DNA from: an uncultured Pelagibacteraceae bacterium
Lineage (GTDB): Bacteria > Pseudomonadota > Alphaproteobacteria > Pelagibacterales > Pelagibacteraceae
Direction of reading: 5' to 3'
Assembly: GCA_902593905.1 (NCBI GenBank)
Contig: CACJKF010000001.1
Location: 62,001 to 126,000 of the forward strand
DNA: 64,000 nucleotides
Part shown: positions 41,781 through 62,196 of the stretch, piece after piece
Numbering within the stretch: the stretch's first letter is position 1
Layout of the letters: each line of letters begins with the position of its first letter
The notes under the pieces: generated by a model
What the model saw: only the letters and a program-made list of their open reading frames with translations
The model's database searches: none
What the model was told of the DNA's origin: nothing
Translations under genes and position numbers: made by a program

Positions 41781-41783
41781 TTG

Positions 41784-43418
41784 ATGTTTGGCTTAAAAGT
41801 TGCCTATTTTTATTTAATTGCCCTACAGGTAACTTTAATAAAATTTTTTAAAAAAATTTATTTTTCTTCTCGCCACTATAACAAGTCTTTACAGACCAAA
41901 GCACCGACACAGGTTAGTTTTAACCCAAACCCTTTTTTACTTTCTATAATTTCTCCGTATAACAAAAAATCTTTTAAAATGAGTGAGATTAGTCCTAATG
42001 AATTTTGGATTGAAAAAAAGAACAAGAATTTTAAAGAGCATCACAGTTTTTTATGGCTTAACCTTATCGATAGAAAAAGTGATAGCAAAAGCATACAAAA
42101 AATTATTTACCTATGGATACTTAAATATTTAAATTTTAGAGAAAGGGTATGGGAGAGTTCGACACTAAGCTCAAGAGTCATAAGCTGGATATTAAACATA
42201 GATATCATAATAAATAACGGAACTTTTGATTATAAAAAAAATGTTTTCCTCAGTATCATCTCACAATGTAATCACTTAAAGATTAATGTTAAATATGAAA
42301 AAGATCAGTTAAAAAAAATAGAAATCTTAACTGCATTAGTATTATCAGGGCTAGTTTTTAAAGAATATGAAAATAATTTTAATGTTGGAATTAGAGAATT
42401 AGAAAAACTAATAAAGTACTACTTTGACAAAGACGGTTTCCCCTTATCTAGAAATCCTAGTGATTTAGTTTTTGTTACAAAATATTTTCTGTTATGTATG
42501 GAAACAATTAAGGACGCACAACAATATGTACCAGAATTTTTAGAGGATATAATTGAGAAAAATCTCTCTTGTATAAAAAATATTAAAACTCCAGATGATA
42601 AAACACCATTGTTTAACGGTGGATATGAGTACGACCTCAAAAGATTTGAAAAATATTTAGAAGGCCGGTCCATAAAAAAACAAGATACTATTGGGGGAAT
42701 ATTTCAAGGTAAGCTTCGCAGCCAGATTTTTTACTTAGATATTGGTAGCCCGCCCAATAAAAATTTTTCAAAAAACTATCAATCTGGTCCTCTATCTTTT
42801 GAATATTATGCTGATGGAGTTAAGATAATAACTAATTGTGGATTTGGGGGGAATATTTCACCTAAAGCAGAGCTTGTTAGTAGACTCACTGCTAGTCAAT
42901 CTACATTAACTATTAATGAGACATCTATAACCAAATTTGAGAGAAACAGACTTGTAAATAGAATTTTTGGAAATTCAATTAAAAATACATTTAAAATCAG
43001 CGAATTAAATATAAAAAATGATAAAGATTTTGTTGGTTGTTCTGTTTTACATAGTGGTTATGAAAAAAACTTTAACTGTTTTCATAAAAGAGAAGTTTAT
43101 TTAGATAAAGTAAACAATAAATTGATTGGTTTAGATCATATTCTTAAAAAAAGTGATGGGAAACCCATTAGGTATGTTTTTAGATTTCATTTGAACCCAA
43201 AACTTACAGCAATTAAAACTATAAGCGGCAATAGTGCTTTAATACAAATATCAAAAAATAAGTCCCTTATTTTTTCGGTAAAAAATGAAGATTTGGAAAT
43301 AGAAAAAAGTATATTTTTGGGAGGAAATAAAATATTAGATAACTATTGTATAACTATTTCTGGTGATTTAGTTAATAAAGACAAATCATTTAATTGGGAA
43401 ATAAAGAAAAAAATTTAA
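41784..43418 (+). CDS. heparinase II/III family protein
   Basis: 544 residues from ATG 41784 (a TTG lies one codon upstream). N-terminal alpha-helical toroid portion (about 60-290, with FWLNLIDRKSD-like and RVWESSTLSSRVISWILN) followed by the beta-sandwich part YQSGPLSFEYYADGVKIITNCGFGG-type region and SRLTASQSTLTINE, which matches heparinase II/III-like proteins found between rpe and purH. The native polysaccharide substrate in these bacteria is unknown. It has no obvious signal peptide, odd for a polysaccharide lyase. Confidence 0.85.
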   Translation: MFGLKVAYFYLIALQVTLIKFFKKIYFSSRHYNKSLQTKAPTQVSFNPNPFLLSIISPYNKKSFKMSEISPNEFWIEKKNKNFKEHHSFLWLNLIDRKSDSKSIQKIIYLWILKYLNFRERVWESSTLSSRVISWILNIDIIINNGTFDYKKNVFLSIISQCNHLKINVKYEKDQLKKIEILTALVLSGLVFKEYENNFNVGIRELEKLIKYYFDKDGFPLSRNPSDLVFVTKYFLLCMETIKDAQQYVPEFLEDIIEKNLSCIKNIKTPDDKTPLFNGGYEYDLKRFEKYLEGRSIKKQDTIGGIFQGKLRSQIFYLDIGSPPNKNFSKNYQSGPLSFEYYADGVKIITNCGFGGNISPKAELVSRLTASQSTLTINETSITKFERNRLVNRIFGNSIKNTFKISELNIKNDKDFVGCSVLHSGYEKNFNCFHKREVYLDKVNNKLIGLDHILKKSDGKPIRYVFRFHLNPKLTAIKTISGNSALIQISKNKSLIFSVKNEDLEIEKSIFLGGNKILDNYCITISGDLVNKDKSFNWEIKKKI

Positions 43419-44969: not shown

Positions 44970-46394
44970 TCAATTCATTAATTTACTAAAGGTCTTTTGT
45001 AAGATTTTTTTCTCTTCCACTTTTTCAAATTTTGAATAAAAATCTTTGTGAATTAAAATTGTTTTAAAAGTACTATCTTTATCAGGCTTAAGTCTAGTTC
45101 CATGGTCAGAAAGAATCATAAACTCTAAATTATTTAGTAATTTTTTTTCAGTAAGCCTCTCAAAAAAAGAATCTAAAAACTTTAATATACAAATCCTGTC
45201 ATAGTTTTGCCCTTTAATTGCTTCCAATTGATCATTCGATGAATAGTTAATGTATCTTTTCCCACTATACTCACATTTATCATTAAATCCATAAGGATTA
45301 TGTGTAGATAAAGAATGTACAAATATTAAATCGTGATTCTGAGTGATTAATTTTTTTTCTATTTTTTTTAAAAGTGAAACAAATGATCCTTTCTCACCAC
45401 CTGATTGTTCGTAAGAGTCCGATAGATTCAGTGTTAAAAAAGCTCTCCATGAAATATTTCCAGAAATAGACCCATGATGTTTCCAAGCACCTAATATTTT
45501 ACTAAGAAAAGTATCTTTAAAACCTTTTACATAGTCGTATTTTTTAAATTGACTATATTGATCACAAATTTTTACATTTTCATTTTTGCAGAAATTCATA
45601 TGATAACTTTGTAGAACAGCAATTGAATTAAATTTATCAAAAAACCTATTTTTTAATATCAAATACTCATTAAAAAAATTATTCGATTTTTCAATATAAT
45701 TTAAATTTTCAAGCTCGTCACAATTTTTGGCATAATCAAAATTTATTAGTTTAGGTATTGATTGAAATGTCATTGGACATTGCGTATAAATATTTTCGTA
45801 AATTTTTGCTCCATATTTTTTTGCAAATATTAAAGCATTTTCGTCAAACTTTTTACCCAGTTCTGATTTGCTTGCATCACTATTAATCCCGGCCATTTGA
45901 TCCATCACAAATACCAAGGTCATTTTTTCATATTTATAATTAACCATAGTTTTTTTAAAATCAGGAAAATTTTCAAAGTTTTTATCGCTAAATTTTAGAG
46001 AGTAAATTAAAGATGCTATTATAAATGATAGTACTATTAAAACCCCTTTATAATTTGTCTTTTTTAAAAGAAATAAATTGATCGCAAAAAAAATTAATAA
46101 AAAAACAAAACCAATCAAATAGACATTTACAGGCGCGAAATTACTCGCATTTGGAATTAAAAAATCACTAAAGATTGACATACAGTTGTCAATACCAAAG
46201 GCTAAAACCAAAGCTAAATATGCATTAAATAAAATTTTACTCTCTACATACTTATTAATAATATTATGAAAAAAGACACCTACTACTATTATTACTAAAG
46301 TAATAAGAATTACATTTATATCAAGGGGAAATGCGAATAACCAGATCGGGAAAAAACAGATTAGATAAATTAAATTATAAAGAATTAAATTCAT
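44970..46394 (-). CDS. sulfatase-like membrane protein (alkaline phosphatase superfamily)
   Basis: 474 residues. About five transmembrane helices (roughly 5-22, 27-43, 57-75, 91-110, 116-133) precede a periplasmic catalytic domain. Metal-site features of the sulfatase/phosphoethanolamine-transferase fold are Asp165 in LVFVMDQMAG, probable nucleophile Thr209 in CPMTFQSIP, HSLSTHNPYG and LSDHGTRL. This layout recalls enzymes that move phospho-groups onto surface glycans or lipids. It forms a unit with the methyltransferase and small YLDPG gene upstream, overlapping the former by 20 bp. Confidence 0.82.
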   Translation of the reverse strand: MNLILYNLIYLICFFPIWLFAFPLDINVILITLVIIVVGVFFHNIINKYVESKILFNAYLALVLAFGIDNCMSIFSDFLIPNASNFAPVNVYLIGFVFLLIFFAINLFLLKKTNYKGVLIVLSFIIASLIYSLKFSDKNFENFPDFKKTMVNYKYEKMTLVFVMDQMAGINSDASKSELGKKFDENALIFAKKYGAKIYENIYTQCPMTFQSIPKLINFDYAKNCDELENLNYIEKSNNFFNEYLILKNRFFDKFNSIAVLQSYHMNFCKNENVKICDQYSQFKKYDYVKGFKDTFLSKILGAWKHHGSISGNISWRAFLTLNLSDSYEQSGGEKGSFVSLLKKIEKKLITQNHDLIFVHSLSTHNPYGFNDKCEYSGKRYINYSSNDQLEAIKGQNYDRICILKFLDSFFERLTEKKLLNNLEFMILSDHGTRLKPDKDSTFKTILIHKDFYSKFEKVEEKKILQKTFSKLMN

Positions 46395-47769
46395 ATAATG
46401 TTCTTCCAGATGAACTCACTACCTTTTTTGATAGAATTTTAGAATATTTTGTTAAAATATTTTTAAAAGTTTCCTCATTATAATTTATAAAAATATCCTC
46501 TCTTACTTGTAACATTTTTTTAATCGTTTCATCGTTTTTTGGTACAAACTCTATTATCCCTCTTGGAGCAAAGTTAACTAGCCACCTTATAGAGTCTTCA
46601 AGAGGTATGTTTTTGGCTATAGTTAAATGATGATTAAAAGCCAAAGCTATCATACCATCAAATTTTAATCTTTCGATAAGCCCTTTTCTCTCCTGTTGAC
46701 TCCAACCTTGATTTGGACTGGGATTTACTGCATCCATGTAGATAGTTTGAAAGTTAAATTTTTTTTCTTTAGATTTTAAATAGGCCTCATTTAAAGCATT
46801 TAAATCAAAATCAAAACCTACAACGTTTTTACAACCATTTTCCAGACAAGTAAAAGAGTATAGACCATTATTGCAGCCTAAATCTGCTAAATATTCAAAA
46901 TTATATTTTGAAGAAAAATCAGAAATTAATTTTATCTTTAACTTTTCTTCATCTAACTTATAAGTATTTTCTTTTGAGTAATTTTGCCATTGACTATTAA
47001 AATTTTTTTTTTTTAATTTAGAAATTAAGCTTTTAAGTTGATTAAGAATAGATTTATAAGTATTTTTTGAAATTGTTTTTTTTTTCTCAACTTTCTTAAA
47101 AATATCATCAGGATTTTTCACCATTTTTTTTTGAATTCTATCCATTAAAAAGACATGCATAAAAATACTTGGATTTAGTTTATCTATAAAATTTAAGATA
47201 GAATTTGTATCAGAGGTTCCAATGCCCTCCAAATTACCTCTAAACCAATTGTTAAAATTTATTCCTTTTTTTGAGCTGAGCAACAACGGATTTAAAAAAT
47301 TTTCACAAAATTGTCTATGCGCCAACCAATACGCCCCATTTTCATACTCTGCTAAAGAAAGAACATCTATAAAAATTGGTTTTGAATGTTTGAATTGTAT
47401 ATTGAATGCACTCGCATCAATTAGTACACAATTTCTATCTAATAAATAAAGTTGAAAATTTAAATGATGTAAAGCTGCATCCTTAAGTTGGTCAAAGCAC
47501 CATTCGTAAGGATAAGAGATGAAATCTATTTTTTCATGTTCTAAAACTTTTTTAAAATTATTGTTTTTGATATTTATATCTGGATTTGAAATAACTTTAG
47601 TATCAATTAAGTATTTATTCTTTATGCTATCTTGTAAAATTTTATTTTTTTCTATGTACTCAAACCTTTTGCACCCTTCGGAATTAAGACCACGATAAAC
47701 CTTTCCATTATGATAAAATACCTGACCGGCTGGATCTCTGTAAGATCCTTTATCAAATAAAATACTCAA
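46375..47769 (-). CDS. SAM-dependent methyltransferase with kinase-like N-terminal half (NoeA-like)
   Basis: 464 residues, start TTG at 47769. The C-terminal half is a class I methyltransferase: LADLGCNNG at 294-302 (SAM site), acidic Asp320 in VVGFDFD and MDAVNPSPNQGW. The N-terminal half (about 10-200) includes HHLNFQLYLLDRNCVLIDAS, FNIQF and IFIDV, spaced like a kinase catalytic loop and metal site, although the usual HxD is not clear. Overall it resembles NoeA-type proteins. No SAM acceptor can be named; surface glycan is plausible from context. Confidence 0.8.
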   Translation of the reverse strand: MSILFDKGSYRDPAGQVFYHNGKVYRGLNSEGCKRFEYIEKNKILQDSIKNKYLIDTKVISNPDINIKNNNFKKVLEHEKIDFISYPYEWCFDQLKDAALHHLNFQLYLLDRNCVLIDASAFNIQFKHSKPIFIDVLSLAEYENGAYWLAHRQFCENFLNPLLLSSKKGINFNNWFRGNLEGIGTSDTNSILNFIDKLNPSIFMHVFLMDRIQKKMVKNPDDIFKKVEKKKTISKNTYKSILNQLKSLISKLKKKNFNSQWQNYSKENTYKLDEEKLKIKLISDFSSKYNFEYLADLGCNNGLYSFTCLENGCKNVVGFDFDLNALNEAYLKSKEKKFNFQTIYMDAVNPSPNQGWSQQERKGLIERLKFDGMIALAFNHHLTIAKNIPLEDSIRWLVNFAPRGIIEFVPKNDETIKKMLQVREDIFINYNEETFKNILTKYSKILSKKVVSSSGRTLYEFNSL

Positions 47770-47978
47770 TTAATTTTATTTTTTTTTTTGAAAAGCTTAC
47801 TGAAAAAATCTTTAAACTTCTTCCAATAAATTCCAATTGTTGTACCTACTGCAGCAATCATTCCAATTATTGCTTGGAGTATTATACTTGAACTTCCTGG
47901 GTCCAAATAACTAAAAGATGGTGTAATCATTAAATTATAAAATATTACAACAAAAAATATATTTTTAATTTTAATCAT
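47766..47978 (-). CDS. small YLDPG-motif membrane protein
   Basis: 70 residues. A signal-like or transmembrane helix (5-22) is followed by YLDPGSSSIILQ at 24-35, a second hydrophobic helix (36-51) and a Lys-rich tail. Small proteins with a LDPG-x-x-S-x-x-LQ motif recur beside sulfatase-like and methyltransferase genes in other bacteria, as far as I recall. Function unknown. It overlaps the methyltransferase start by 4 bp. Confidence 0.75.
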   Translation of the reverse strand: MIKIKNIFFVVIFYNLMITPSFSYLDPGSSSIILQAIIGMIAAVGTTIGIYWKKFKDFFSKLFKKKNKIN

Positions 47979-48375: not shown

Positions 48376-48450
48376 TGGAGCGGGCAAAGGGGCTCGAACC
48401 CTCGACCTTCTCGTTGGCAACGAGACGCTCTACCACTGAGCTATGCCCGC
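48376..48450 (-). tRNA. tRNA-Gly (GCC anticodon)
   Basis: 75-nt cloverleaf on the minus strand. The acceptor stem GCGGGCA pairs with TGCCCGC, discriminator T, and CCA is encoded. The D arm is GCTC-AGTGGTA-GAGC, the anticodon stem TCTCG/CGAGA holds loop TTGCCAA (anticodon GCC), and the T arm is GAGGG-TTCGAGC-CCCTT. All arms pair. Confidence 0.97.
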
Positions 48451-53857: not shown

Positions 53858-54559
53858 ATGAAAAATAAATTAGATTTGATTTTAGTAATACCAGTCTTTA
53901 ATGAAGAGAAAATTATTAAAGAAGTCATAAAAAATTGGTTAAAAGCTCTAAAAAAAATTAATTTCAAAATAATTATAGTTAATGACGGCTCACGAGATAA
54001 CTCCAAAAAAGTCATCAAATCGATATTATCAAATAAAATTAAATTATTAAATAAAAAAAATTCTGGTCATGGTCCAACTATAACTTATGGTTATAAAATG
54101 GCTCTTAAATTAAAACCAAATTTTATTTTTCAAGTCGATAGTGATGATCAGTTCTACACCTCAGATTTTAAAACTTTTTGGAGTAAAAGATACAATTATG
54201 ATTTCATTATTGGTCATAGGCTTATCAGAAACGACCCGTTTCATAGATTAGTTGTTACAAGGTTATTAAAATTACTAATACTTACTTTTTTTGGTTTTTT
54301 TGTAAAAGACATAAATGTTCCATATAGATTGATAAATTATATTACTCTAAAAAGGTGTTTAAAAAATATTAAATCTACTAATTTAATACCCAATGTGTTG
54401 CTTAGCTTATTAGCTTTTAAGAAATTCAAATGTAAGACAGAAATTATAAAACATAAAAAAAGAAAGACAGGAAAGGTTGTTTTAGCTAATTTGAATTTAG
54501 TAAAATTTTGCTTTAAAGCTCTTTTGGAACTAATTATTTTTAGAATTTTAAAATTTTAA
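53858..54559 (+). CDS. glycosyltransferase family 2
   Basis: 233 residues, GT-A fold. N-terminal LDLILVIPVFNEEKIIKEVI and IIIVNDGSRDNSKKVI bind the nucleotide; FQVDSDDQF contains the DxD metal site. There are no clear transmembrane helices at the end except a hydrophobic C-terminal patch. A good AAGGAA site precedes the ATG. First gene of a three-gene unit with glf and galE, so the sugar transferred could be galactofuranose or galactose. Confidence 0.88.
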   Translation: MKNKLDLILVIPVFNEEKIIKEVIKNWLKALKKINFKIIIVNDGSRDNSKKVIKSILSNKIKLLNKKNSGHGPTITYGYKMALKLKPNFIFQVDSDDQFYTSDFKTFWSKRYNYDFIIGHRLIRNDPFHRLVVTRLLKLLILTFFGFFVKDINVPYRLINYITLKRCLKNIKSTNLIPNVLLSLLAFKKFKCKTEIIKHKKRKTGKVVLANLNLVKFCFKALLELIIFRILKF

Positions 54560-54561
54560 TC

Positions 54562-55686
54562 ATGACGGACTTTTTAATAATAGGCTCAGGTTTTTATGGT
54601 AGCGTTTTGGCAGAAAGGATAGCTAATGTTTTAAAAAAAAAAGTAATAGTAATAGACCAGAGATCTCACATTGGGGGGAATTGTTTTACTGACATAGATA
54701 AGAAGACTGGAATTGAATATCATGTATACGGAACTCACATATTTCATACGTCAAACGTTAAAGTTTGGGATTATATAAATCAATTTACAGATTTTAATAA
54801 TTACAGACATCAAGTTCTAAGCCGACACAAAAGAAAAATTTATCAGATGCCTATAAATCTTGAAACAATAAACTCGCTTTTTAAGAAAAACTTAAATCCA
54901 AAGGAAGCATCGATTTTTTTAAAAAAAATTACAAAAACATTTCAAAAAAAAGATTACAAAAATTTTGAGGATAAAGCTAAATCACAAATTGGAAATAAAT
55001 TATATTCGGCTTTTATTAAGAATTATACTAAGAAGCAATGGAATAAAGATCCTAAGTATCTTCCAAGTAGTATTTTCAACAGATTGCCGATTAGATTAAA
55101 TTACAATGAAGATTATTATGAGCAAACTCAATGGCAAGGAATACCTAAATATGGATACACAGAAATATTTAAAAAGTTGTTAAATAATAAAAATATTAAA
55201 TTAATTCTTAATAAAAAGTATGATCTTAATTTTAAAATTAAACCTAAATATCTGACAATTTATACGGGACCATTAGACAGACTTCTAAACTATAAGTTTG
55301 GCAAGCTTGACTGGAGATCTCTAAAATTTAAAAAAAAAAGGTTAGATATAAATGATTTTCAGGGGACGTCGGTCATTAATTATCCCGATCTAAGCTATAA
55401 GTTTACTCGGATTCATGAACCCAAACATCTTCATCCTGAGAGAAGTGTTTTTAAAACAAATAAGACATTAATTATTGAGGAGTATCCATCTAATAATGTT
55501 AATGAGCCATACTATCCAATTAATGACAAAAAAAACAGGGAGCTTCATAGAAAATATAAAAATTATTTAAAAAGTTTTACAAAATTTACTTTCGGAGGGC
55601 GTTTAGCTGACTATGCTTATTACGACATGGATATGACAATTTCAGCTGCTTTAAAAAAATTTGAACAAATTAAAAAAAATATATAA
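54562..55686 (+). CDS. glf: UDP-galactopyranose mutase
   Basis: FAD enzyme converting UDP-galactopyranose to UDP-galactofuranose. 374 residues. The N-terminal FLIIGSGFYGSVLAERIAN binds FAD; RSHIGGNCFTD, HVYGTHIFHTSN, NYTKKQWNKDPKYLP and TRIHEPKHL are typical, as is the C-terminal FGGRLADYAYYDMDM. The presence of glf implies galactofuranose in a surface glycan. Starts 2 bp after GT2. Confidence 0.96.
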   Translation: MTDFLIIGSGFYGSVLAERIANVLKKKVIVIDQRSHIGGNCFTDIDKKTGIEYHVYGTHIFHTSNVKVWDYINQFTDFNNYRHQVLSRHKRKIYQMPINLETINSLFKKNLNPKEASIFLKKITKTFQKKDYKNFEDKAKSQIGNKLYSAFIKNYTKKQWNKDPKYLPSSIFNRLPIRLNYNEDYYEQTQWQGIPKYGYTEIFKKLLNNKNIKLILNKKYDLNFKIKPKYLTIYTGPLDRLLNYKFGKLDWRSLKFKKKRLDINDFQGTSVINYPDLSYKFTRIHEPKHLHPERSVFKTNKTLIIEEYPSNNVNEPYYPINDKKNRELHRKYKNYLKSFTKFTFGGRLADYAYYDMDMTISAALKKFEQIKKNI

Positions 55687-61377: not shown

Positions 61378-62196
61378 ATGAACGAAAAATACAATGTATA
61401 TCTTGTTTCTGACTCAACAGGTGAAACCCTAGATAGAATATTTTTGTCTCTCAAATCTCAATTCGCGAATTTCGAATATGATAAAAAAGAGTTCGCTTTC
61501 GTAAGAACGGAACAACAAATAGATAAAATAATCAAGGAATGTAATAAAGTCGAAAACTCTCTAATTTTATATACAATAGTTGAGACAAAGTTAGCGAAAT
61601 ATCTATCAAATCAAAGTGAAATAAATAATGTCCCCTGTTTTGGAATTTTAGGCAATTTAATCTTAAGTTTTTCAAAGCTTTTAAATCAAAAAGCAATACA
61701 CAAACCAAGTGCACAACATGTTCTTGATGATGATTATTACAAAAGAATTGAGGCAATACAATTTACCATGTCACACGACGATGGAAAAAAGGTAGATGAT
61801 ATAAATAATGCCGATGTTATTTTGCTGGGAGTAAGTAGAACTAGCAAAACACCGACGTCTATCTATTTAGCAAACAGGGGATATAAAACAATAAATATTC
61901 CTTTAGTATTGGAGCAAAAACTTCCTGAAGGATTGAAGGTGAATAAAAAAGTTTGTGTAGTAGGATTAATTGCCGACCCCGAACGATTAGCTGATATTAG
62001 AAGAAATAGAGTTGCAATTATGAAAGATCAAAGTTTAAAAGAGTACACAGATTTAGAGTCTATAAAAAAAGAGATTGAGGATTCAAAAATCCTATTTAAA
62101 AAAAATAATTGGCCTATTATCGATGTAACAAGAAAATCAGTAGAGGAAACAGCAGCGTCAATTTTAAAAATCATTGAAATAACCAAGAGCAAATGA
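61378..62196 (+). CDS. ppsR: kinase/pyrophosphorylase regulating PPDK or PEP synthase (DUF299)
   Basis: Bifunctional regulator that phosphorylates and dephosphorylates pyruvate phosphate dikinase or PEP synthetase, controlling pyruvate-PEP flux. 272 residues. The family N-terminus YLVSDSTGETLDRIFLSL and the P-loop-like GVSRTSKTPTSIYLANRGY are diagnostic, with YTDLESIKKEIEDS and the C-terminal PIIDVTRKSVEETAA. Its place beside hemE is conserved at alphaproteobacterial origins. Overlaps maf by 4 bp. Confidence 0.95.
   Translation: MNEKYNVYLVSDSTGETLDRIFLSLKSQFANFEYDKKEFAFVRTEQQIDKIIKECNKVENSLILYTIVETKLAKYLSNQSEINNVPCFGILGNLILSFSKLLNQKAIHKPSAQHVLDDDYYKRIEAIQFTMSHDDGKKVDDINNADVILLGVSRTSKTPTSIYLANRGYKTINIPLVLEQKLPEGLKVNKKVCVVGLIADPERLADIRRNRVAIMKDQSLKEYTDLESIKKEIEDSKILFKKNNWPIIDVTRKSVEETAASILKIIEITKSK

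Follow-up and report, generated by a model that had tools for sequence, protein, structure and literature searches.

The nodulation genes noeA and noeB of Sinorhizobium were reportedly named in 1995 as Medicago host-range genes, in a study by Ardourel. The best phenotype found is that of a strain with a truncated noeA, which failed to nodulate 17 of 27 Medicago truncatula genotypes (PMC4053727). No biochemical function or product of either gene was named in the literature found, which was covered in part. A 2022 survey of Legionella described the Lani_1194 kinase-methyltransferase family, with about two thousand kinase-domain homologues, a methyltransferase in 94% of them, and two conserved neighbors in 65% and 38% of 816 gene neighborhoods, one of which is a NoeB homologue (PMC9758233). 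In this study, we analyzed three overlapping genes related to this system, which lie in a stretch of 64,000 nucleotides (the window; positions 62,001 to 126,000 of contig CACJKF010000001.1) from an uncultured Pelagibacteraceae bacterium.

Examination of the open reading frames confirmed the trio on the minus strand of the window, with the following features:

47766..47978, minus strand: YLDPG mini-protein gene, 70 amino acids (open reading frame; kin to the "hypothetical protein" reading frame between nodL and noeA on Ensifer/Sinorhizobium symbiotic plasmids)
47910..47978, minus strand: predicted signal peptide of the mini-protein, residues 1-23, last residues SFS (signal-peptidase-type residues before the Tyr in relatives)
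47895..47909, minus strand: YLDPG motif, predicted mature N-terminus, extracytoplasmic according to the inferred topology
47766..47769, minus strand: TTGA overlap of 4 bases, in which the mini-protein stop TGA and the noeA start TTG interlock
46375..47769, minus strand: noeA-like gene, 464 amino acids, TTG start, kinase-like half plus methyltransferase (homology, domain comparison)
47065..47769, minus strand: NoeA kinase-like half, residues ~1-235, with invariant R26, E89, D118, N123 and D135
46378..47013, minus strand: NoeA methyltransferase domain, residues ~253-464, with invariant Y264, H380, H381 and R456 (alignment, fold)
44970..46394, minus strand: noeB-like gene, 474 amino acids, five membrane helices plus alkaline-phosphatase-superfamily domain (Pfam, fold, model)
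45990..46394, minus strand: NoeB five-helix membrane part, residues 1-135 (AlphaFold model)
44973..45938, minus strand: NoeB extracytoplasmic catalytic domain, residues 153-474, with D165, T209, H360, H365 and D430 (conservation, fold)

The noeB-type gene is directly 3' of the noeA-like gene on the same strand, and the two share 20 bases (46375-46394). Both overlaps, of 4 and 20 bases, had been described in a first-pass annotation of this DNA and are borne out by these coordinates.

Relationship to the noeA-noeB Operon

The product of the second gene aligned with Sinorhizobium NoeA at 98% coverage and 40% identity. In 65 plasmid records, matches spanned 80% or more of the protein; they comprised NoeA from Sinorhizobium, Ensifer and Rhizobium plus proteins encoded on four other plasmids, with an identity of approximately 40% among the matches listed. 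The gene order in the Ensifer canadensis record is nodL, a hypothetical protein, noeA and noeB (annotated as "sulfatase-like hydrolase/transferase"), and the same order was observed in pSymA of S. meliloti 1021. The hypothetical protein of the nodL operon is the YLDPG mini-protein, which was matched in 61 plasmid records, all from Sinorhizobium, Rhizobium or Ensifer. Because nodL-operon records carry the matching three genes in order, the trio is, as judged by sequence comparison, the noeA-noeB module together with an overlooked first gene. The first-pass annotation knew of no described pathway that combines the three families, which needs correction: two of them correspond to the nodL-operon genes noeA and noeB, and the family and its neighbors appear in the Legionella survey (PMC9758233). 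We infer that the second conserved neighbor in that survey, whose sequence is not visible there, is the mini-protein. A literature search on YLDPG found no paper.

We suggest, with a probability of about 0.47, that the mini-protein/noeA/noeB module may attach methyl-phosphate to a glycan or some other exported molecule, NoeA being the inner loader, NoeB the outer transferase and the mini-protein a small subunit.

Gene Order and Distribution

To characterize co-occurrence, we used the best 80 of 565 confirmed NoeA loci, which are named and biased to close relatives. The mini-protein was found in 76 of them and NoeB in 64, with 63 loci having both, so that the rarity of co-occurrence that would speak against a module was not observed. 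The mini-protein gene lies directly upstream of noeA in 72/80 loci, and in 25 of these 72 the two genes could overlap by 4 bases; NoeB is encoded within 300 bases downstream in 43/80. Among the taxa named are Alpha- and Gammaproteobacteria, Acidobacteria, Nitrospirota, Nitrospinaceae, Planctomycetota, Gemmatimonadales, Peregrinibacteria and Gastranaerophilales; the second gene has many of its closest named homologues in uncultured Pelagibacteraceae. Because the identical gene order recurs across so many taxa, the trio is more than chance, and the conserved, tightly packed three-gene module of the first-pass annotation stands. A chance overlap or a set of private genes was ruled out by the homologues and the recurring order.

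The location in the nodL operon and the role of noeA in host range (PMC4053727) might suggest a nodulation-specific unit for Nod-factor tailoring, copied in other bacteria by chance. This is very improbable in view of the presence of the module in SAR11, Acidobacteria, Nitrospirota, Planctomycetota and other organisms that are not known Nod-factor makers; on the basis of this distribution, its use in nodulation looks like the recruitment of a general module.

In the class sample, NoeA was detected in 28/385 genomes (the window's own counted), five of the matches being weak or partial (E above 1e-9). It is present in 1 of 36 other genomes of the same genus (G001-G036), and the trio is accessory within the genus. 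The module of that one genome is partial, with the mini-protein gene downstream rather than upstream of noeA. Two NoeB copies beside one NoeA were found at several loci (L034, L036, L038, L117, L150, L173 and L182), an arrangement suggestive of a single loader supplying more than one transferase.

Phosphate-Methylating Residues in NoeA

Pfam analysis of the 464-residue protein yielded only sub-threshold methyltransferase matches (residues ~296-386). All residues of the kinase-like half and the methyltransferase domain that are listed above, as well as D296 and N300 in the latter, are invariant in 67/67 NoeA proteins. The D118-N123-D135 spacing (5 and 12) is near that of the kinase catalytic loop and metal-binding Asp, which is 5 and 13 in PKA (D166, N171 and D184; cited in PMC9758233). 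The kinase-like half proposed in the first-pass annotation is supported by R26, D118, N123 and D135.

In WbdD, the changes H132A, H133A, R203A and Y16F abolish methylation and leave phosphorylation intact, and R203, H132 and H133 confer the use of phosphate (PMC3482155). In the E. coli HS protein, residues 16, 132, 133, 203, 351, 356 and 369 are Y, H, H, R, D, N and D. Alignment of the NoeA profile with WbdD (hhalign E 7.7e-8) paired H380-H381 with H132-H133 and R456 with R203. WbdD had the top score among 14 methyltransferase-like targets (WbdD and 13 such proteins encoded at the loci), and it alone paired the His pair, E407 and R456; in all 13 comparators R456 was left unaligned, which is a missing match at this position and not a differing residue. 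It was also the first Foldseek match of NoeA (E 8.6e-9), and the VIA top 50 for the methyltransferase fold contained MePCE (Z 17.3), BCDIN3D (16.7) and WbdD (16.3). No kinase fold was found among the matches listed by Foldseek and VIA, which were filled by the methyltransferase half. As far as the alignment can tell, NoeA carries the WbdD-type phosphate-methylating residues, that is, the His pair and the Arg.

NoeA might instead methylate something other than phosphate, such as a sugar hydroxyl or a small molecule, its kinase-like half being a substrate-binding pseudokinase and NoeB a hydrolase. The hidden Markov model matches of NoeA to generic methyltransferases (e.g., CmoB and PrmA), the replacement of the kinase Lys by Arg (PMC9758233) and the abundance of sulfatases and hydrolases among the NoeB fold matches are consistent with this. 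However, the invariance of D118, N123, D135, H380, H381 and R456, and the conserved Thr of NoeB where a sulfatase has Cys/Ser, speak against it, and we consider it unlikely.

NoeB as a Candidate Membrane Phosphotransferase

The 474-residue protein matched the Sulfatase family (PF00884, E 5.5e-8, above the Pfam cut-off). Its AlphaFold model (predicted local distance difference test 86, predicted template modeling score 0.87) contains five membrane-type helices at the N-terminus, followed by a globular domain that starts near residue 153. The closest solved folds of this outer domain are phosphonate monoester hydrolase, EptC, EptA, MCR-1, LtaS, GacH and sulfatases, with tightly grouped scores (Z 17.9-19.5). 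Among 44 NoeB proteins, D165 and D430 are invariant, and T209, H360, H365 and G432 are conserved in at least 90%. The Cys/Ser-x-Pro-x-Arg motif of sulfatases is absent; the window protein has YTQCPMTFQSIP, which includes the conserved Thr. A true, formylglycine-type sulfatase was ruled out by the lack of this motif. Transferases of the LtaS and EptA types likewise have a Thr in place of the sulfatase Cys/Ser. NoeB resembles a membrane phosphotransferase with a Thr nucleophile, the alignment suggesting T209 in this role; of the sulfatase or phosphotransferase domain that the first-pass annotation gave its five-helix membrane enzyme, the phosphotransferase type is supported.

EptA, MCR-1 and LtaS, to which the fold of NoeB is equally close, use phospholipid donors. 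It is conceivable that NoeA is fully WbdD-like and phosphorylates and methylates a lipid-linked glycan in the cytosol, whereas NoeB acts separately outside, in phosphoethanolamine or glycerol-phosphate transfer or in trimming. The WbdD residues in NoeA and the 16/80 loci whose stretch encodes NoeA but no NoeB would also fit such a division. However, the tight linkage of NoeA, NoeB and the mini-protein, and the replacement of NoeA by Glyphos_transf beside the mini-protein and NoeB (see below), point to a chained pathway; thus, we regard separate roles as somewhat unlikely.

The YLDPG Mini-Protein

The mini-protein contains the sequence SFSYLDPGSSS, ends in FKKKNKIN, and had no match in a Pfam scan. 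Y24 and Q35 are invariant in 69/69 relatives. The residues at positions -3 and -1 before the Tyr suit signal peptidase I in 76/76 proteins of the 80-locus set and 48/48 of a mini-protein-centered set, and the Tyr itself is kept in 76/76 and 47/48 (His in L104); these parsed counts exclude L182 (AKAYINPG; 77 found) and L089 (49 given). The stretch that follows the helix is basic, with a mean net charge of +2.5 and +3.5 in the two sets. The mini-protein is predicted to be cleaved by signal peptidase, with an N-terminal Tyr outside and a basic tail inside, a topology in line with C-terminal fusions of relatives to cytosolic-type domains.

Exchange of Partner Proteins

A search with the mini-protein only, which gave matches in 37/385 class genomes and 14/299 phylum genomes, revealed additional partners. 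We tabulated 50 mini-protein loci, 39 of the YxD type and 11 of the YxGPG type. NoeB, NoeA or Glyphos_transf (PF04464, a cytidine diphosphate-polyol-type transferase) was encoded within 4 kb or fused in 36/39 YxD-type loci, the exceptions being L089, L099 and L105. All 11 YxGPG-type loci have a sulfotransferase and/or ASST, and none has NoeB, NoeA or Glyphos_transf; ASST or Sulfotransfer_3 was confirmed by Pfam in those neighbors that were scanned. The relationship between the D/G type and partner class (Fisher p ~1e-8) is descriptive rather than a strict test, since the loci share ancestry. One YxD-type locus (L206) contains both a NoeB-like and a sulfotransferase gene.

In several loci that lack NoeA, Glyphos_transf is beside the mini-protein or fused to it; four YxD-type mini-proteins (L092, L094, L096 and L102) have it as a C-terminal domain. 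Adjoining three of these fusions (L092:3583-6594, L096:2719-5460 and L102:8436-11147) are genes for proteins of 903-1003 amino acids with a YidC/Oxa1-type domain (PF02096) and a sulfatase-fold domain, and cytidylyltransferases are near two of the three. A YxGPG mini-protein, a second small membrane protein (~125-131 amino acids), ASST and Sulfotransfer_3 recur at five loci:

L207:1065-1685, YxGPG sulfo-system
L208:6777-7486, YxGPG sulfo-system
L209:6979-7560, YxGPG sulfo-system
L101:8272-8870, YxGPG sulfo-system
L091:7464-8146, YxGPG sulfo-system

We know of no description of this sulfo-system.

Two of the YxD-type loci without NoeA contain a protein matching methylphosphonate synthase 6b9s, in both cases within ~4 kb. 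In L095, the match (E 6e-74) occurs together with a PsrA-like iron-dependent alcohol dehydrogenase, a nucleoside triphosphate transferase, NoeB, the mini-protein and Glyphos_transf; in L099, the match (E 8e-55) is accompanied by a phosphoenolpyruvate mutase-cytidylyltransferase and a phosphonopyruvate decarboxylase. An independent search for this synthase in the 385 class genomes detected it in two, precisely the genomes of L095 and L099. Methylphosphonate is nearly isosteric with methyl-phosphate, and our central inference is that the two might share an outer transferase and a small subunit. Literature searches combining methylphosphonate, exopolysaccharide and glycerophosphotransferase, or methylphosphonate synthase, sulfatase and gene cluster, found none. 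In the window's own order, two loci (L217:7504-11724 and L216:9465-13417) have the synthase with reading frames resembling phosphoenolpyruvate mutase and cytidylyltransferase (named by eye), and L217 also has a protein similar to the Glyphos_transf neighbors in its FYSE start.

The residue two positions after the Tyr (D or G) matches the partner class, and the Tyr is the polar residue common to both types. Based on this, the mini-protein could be a covalent carrier, whose mature N-terminal Tyr takes the acid group (methyl-phosphate, methylphosphonate or polyol-phosphate on the YxDPG type, sulfate on the YxGPG type) and hands it on to a transferase outside, of the NoeB family or ASST. ASST enzymes use aryl sulfate donors. 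The idea is weakened by topology, the loader being cytosolic and the Tyr outside, yet a YidC-type domain forms part of some of the outer enzymes; we consider the idea quite unlikely. If true, one small-protein superfamily would serve three chemistries of acid-group decoration.

Proposed Mechanism

For decoration with methyl-phosphate by the complete module, three steps may be proposed. First, cytosolic NoeA would phosphorylate a hydroxyl with its kinase-like half and then methylate the phosphate with its WbdD-type half, as its conserved residues suggest. Second, NoeB, an LtaS/EptA-type enzyme with a Thr nucleophile according to its fold and residues, would transfer the methyl-phosphate or an equivalent phospho-group to an acceptor outside the membrane. 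Third, the YLDPG protein, cleaved to start at its Tyr, may be a single-helix subunit coupling loader to transferase, as the swaps and fusions indicate. More generally, an inner enzyme (NoeA, Glyphos_transf or sulfotransferase) would load the acid group, an outer enzyme (NoeB or ASST) would deliver it, and the YxxPG protein would link the two. For the window trio, the group would be methyl-phosphate, most likely on a surface glycan, with a putative loading step, carrier and acceptor. The methylated phospho-group on a surface glycan that the first-pass annotation proposed is partly supported: a methylated phosphate is the likely product in view of the WbdD residues in NoeA and the methylphosphonate synthase at two NoeA-less loci, and the glycan stays a candidate acceptor.

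Several observations weigh against this mechanism. We know of no report of methyl-phosphate on S. meliloti Nod factors. One partner is missing at 17/80 NoeA loci, and the same-genus genome G036 (L033:4520-7635) encodes NoeA and the mini-protein, but its available sequence lacks NoeB. Few loci carry the methylphosphonate link: it holds for two of two synthase genomes in the class sample, but of the 2/197 genomes of the window's order that have the synthase, G791 encodes the mini-protein and NoeB side by side, but on a different contig from the synthase and with no NoeA, and G858 has none of the three. WbdD Y16 did not align with NoeA Y264. The catalytic loops of the NoeA and WbdD kinase halves line up, but insignificantly (hhalign E 0.78), and this match was dropped. 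By fold, MePCE, BCDIN3D and WbdD tie with dozens of class I methyltransferases (Z 16-18), so that fold alone was rejected as proof of phosphate methylation. In addition, an Arg replaces the PKA Lys in the kinase half (PMC9758233).

These readings give noeA and noeB a specific, testable chemistry, methyl-phosphate, in a module whose first gene is left as hypothetical by annotation. They also connect the module with gene clusters for methylphosphonate synthesis in marine bacteria, which are relevant to methane in the ocean, and point to a small membrane protein family common to phospho-, phosphono- and sulfo-decoration systems.

Other Features of the Window

The genome assembly comprises 848,189 bases in 30 contigs and is 77% complete. 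No nodL was found 5' of the trio, where the neighbors are purH-like and carbinolamine-dehydratase-like reading frames (named by eye). A GT2 glycosyltransferase and a uridine diphosphate-galactopyranose mutase (TIGR00031, E 5e-100) are encoded at 53858-55686, 6-8 kb from the trio, hinting at galactofuranose in a surface glycan. A Heparinase II/III-like protein (PF07940, E 2e-29) is encoded at 41781-43418, despite the very small genome. The sole tRNA found in the window is tRNA-Gly(gcc) at 48376-48450. A search for DNA repeats revealed nothing notable.

Comparison with Known Systems

The window module resembles the Sinorhizobium nodL-noeA-noeB operon in full-length NoeA homology, NoeB homology and the mini-protein in matching order, but it has no adjoining nodL and its host is a marine SAR11-type bacterium. 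NoeA of the window belongs to the Lani_1194 family, with the identical fusion and conserved neighbors that were already noted there, whereas the accessible account makes no mention of a YLDPG motif, WbdD residues or partner swaps (PMC9758233). What is new here is the putative phosphate-methylation residues of NoeA, the candidate Thr nucleophile of NoeB, the predicted cleavage site of the mini-protein and the partner swaps.

WbdD of E. coli O9a likewise combines kinase and methyltransferase in one chain (the kinase activity of NoeA being presumed), with the His pair and Arg aligned. However, its methyltransferase precedes the kinase, the reverse of NoeA, its gene neighbors are different, and the kinase halves are not detectably alike. 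NoeB shares membrane helices, an outer alkaline-phosphatase-type domain and the probable Thr nucleophile with LtaS, EptA and GacH, but is only ~9-15% identical to them, may use a donor other than a phospholipid, and is usually accompanied by a small partner protein. The mini-protein is reminiscent of DltX of teichoic-acid D-alanylation, a small single-pass protein with a conserved terminal motif outside, which is predicted to reach the active site of its partner (PMC11035591). The DltX motif is C-terminal and aromatic, whereas that of the mini-protein would be N-terminal after signal cleavage; no sequence relation was seen, and the partners of the mini-protein are phosphotransferase-like rather than MBOAT proteins.

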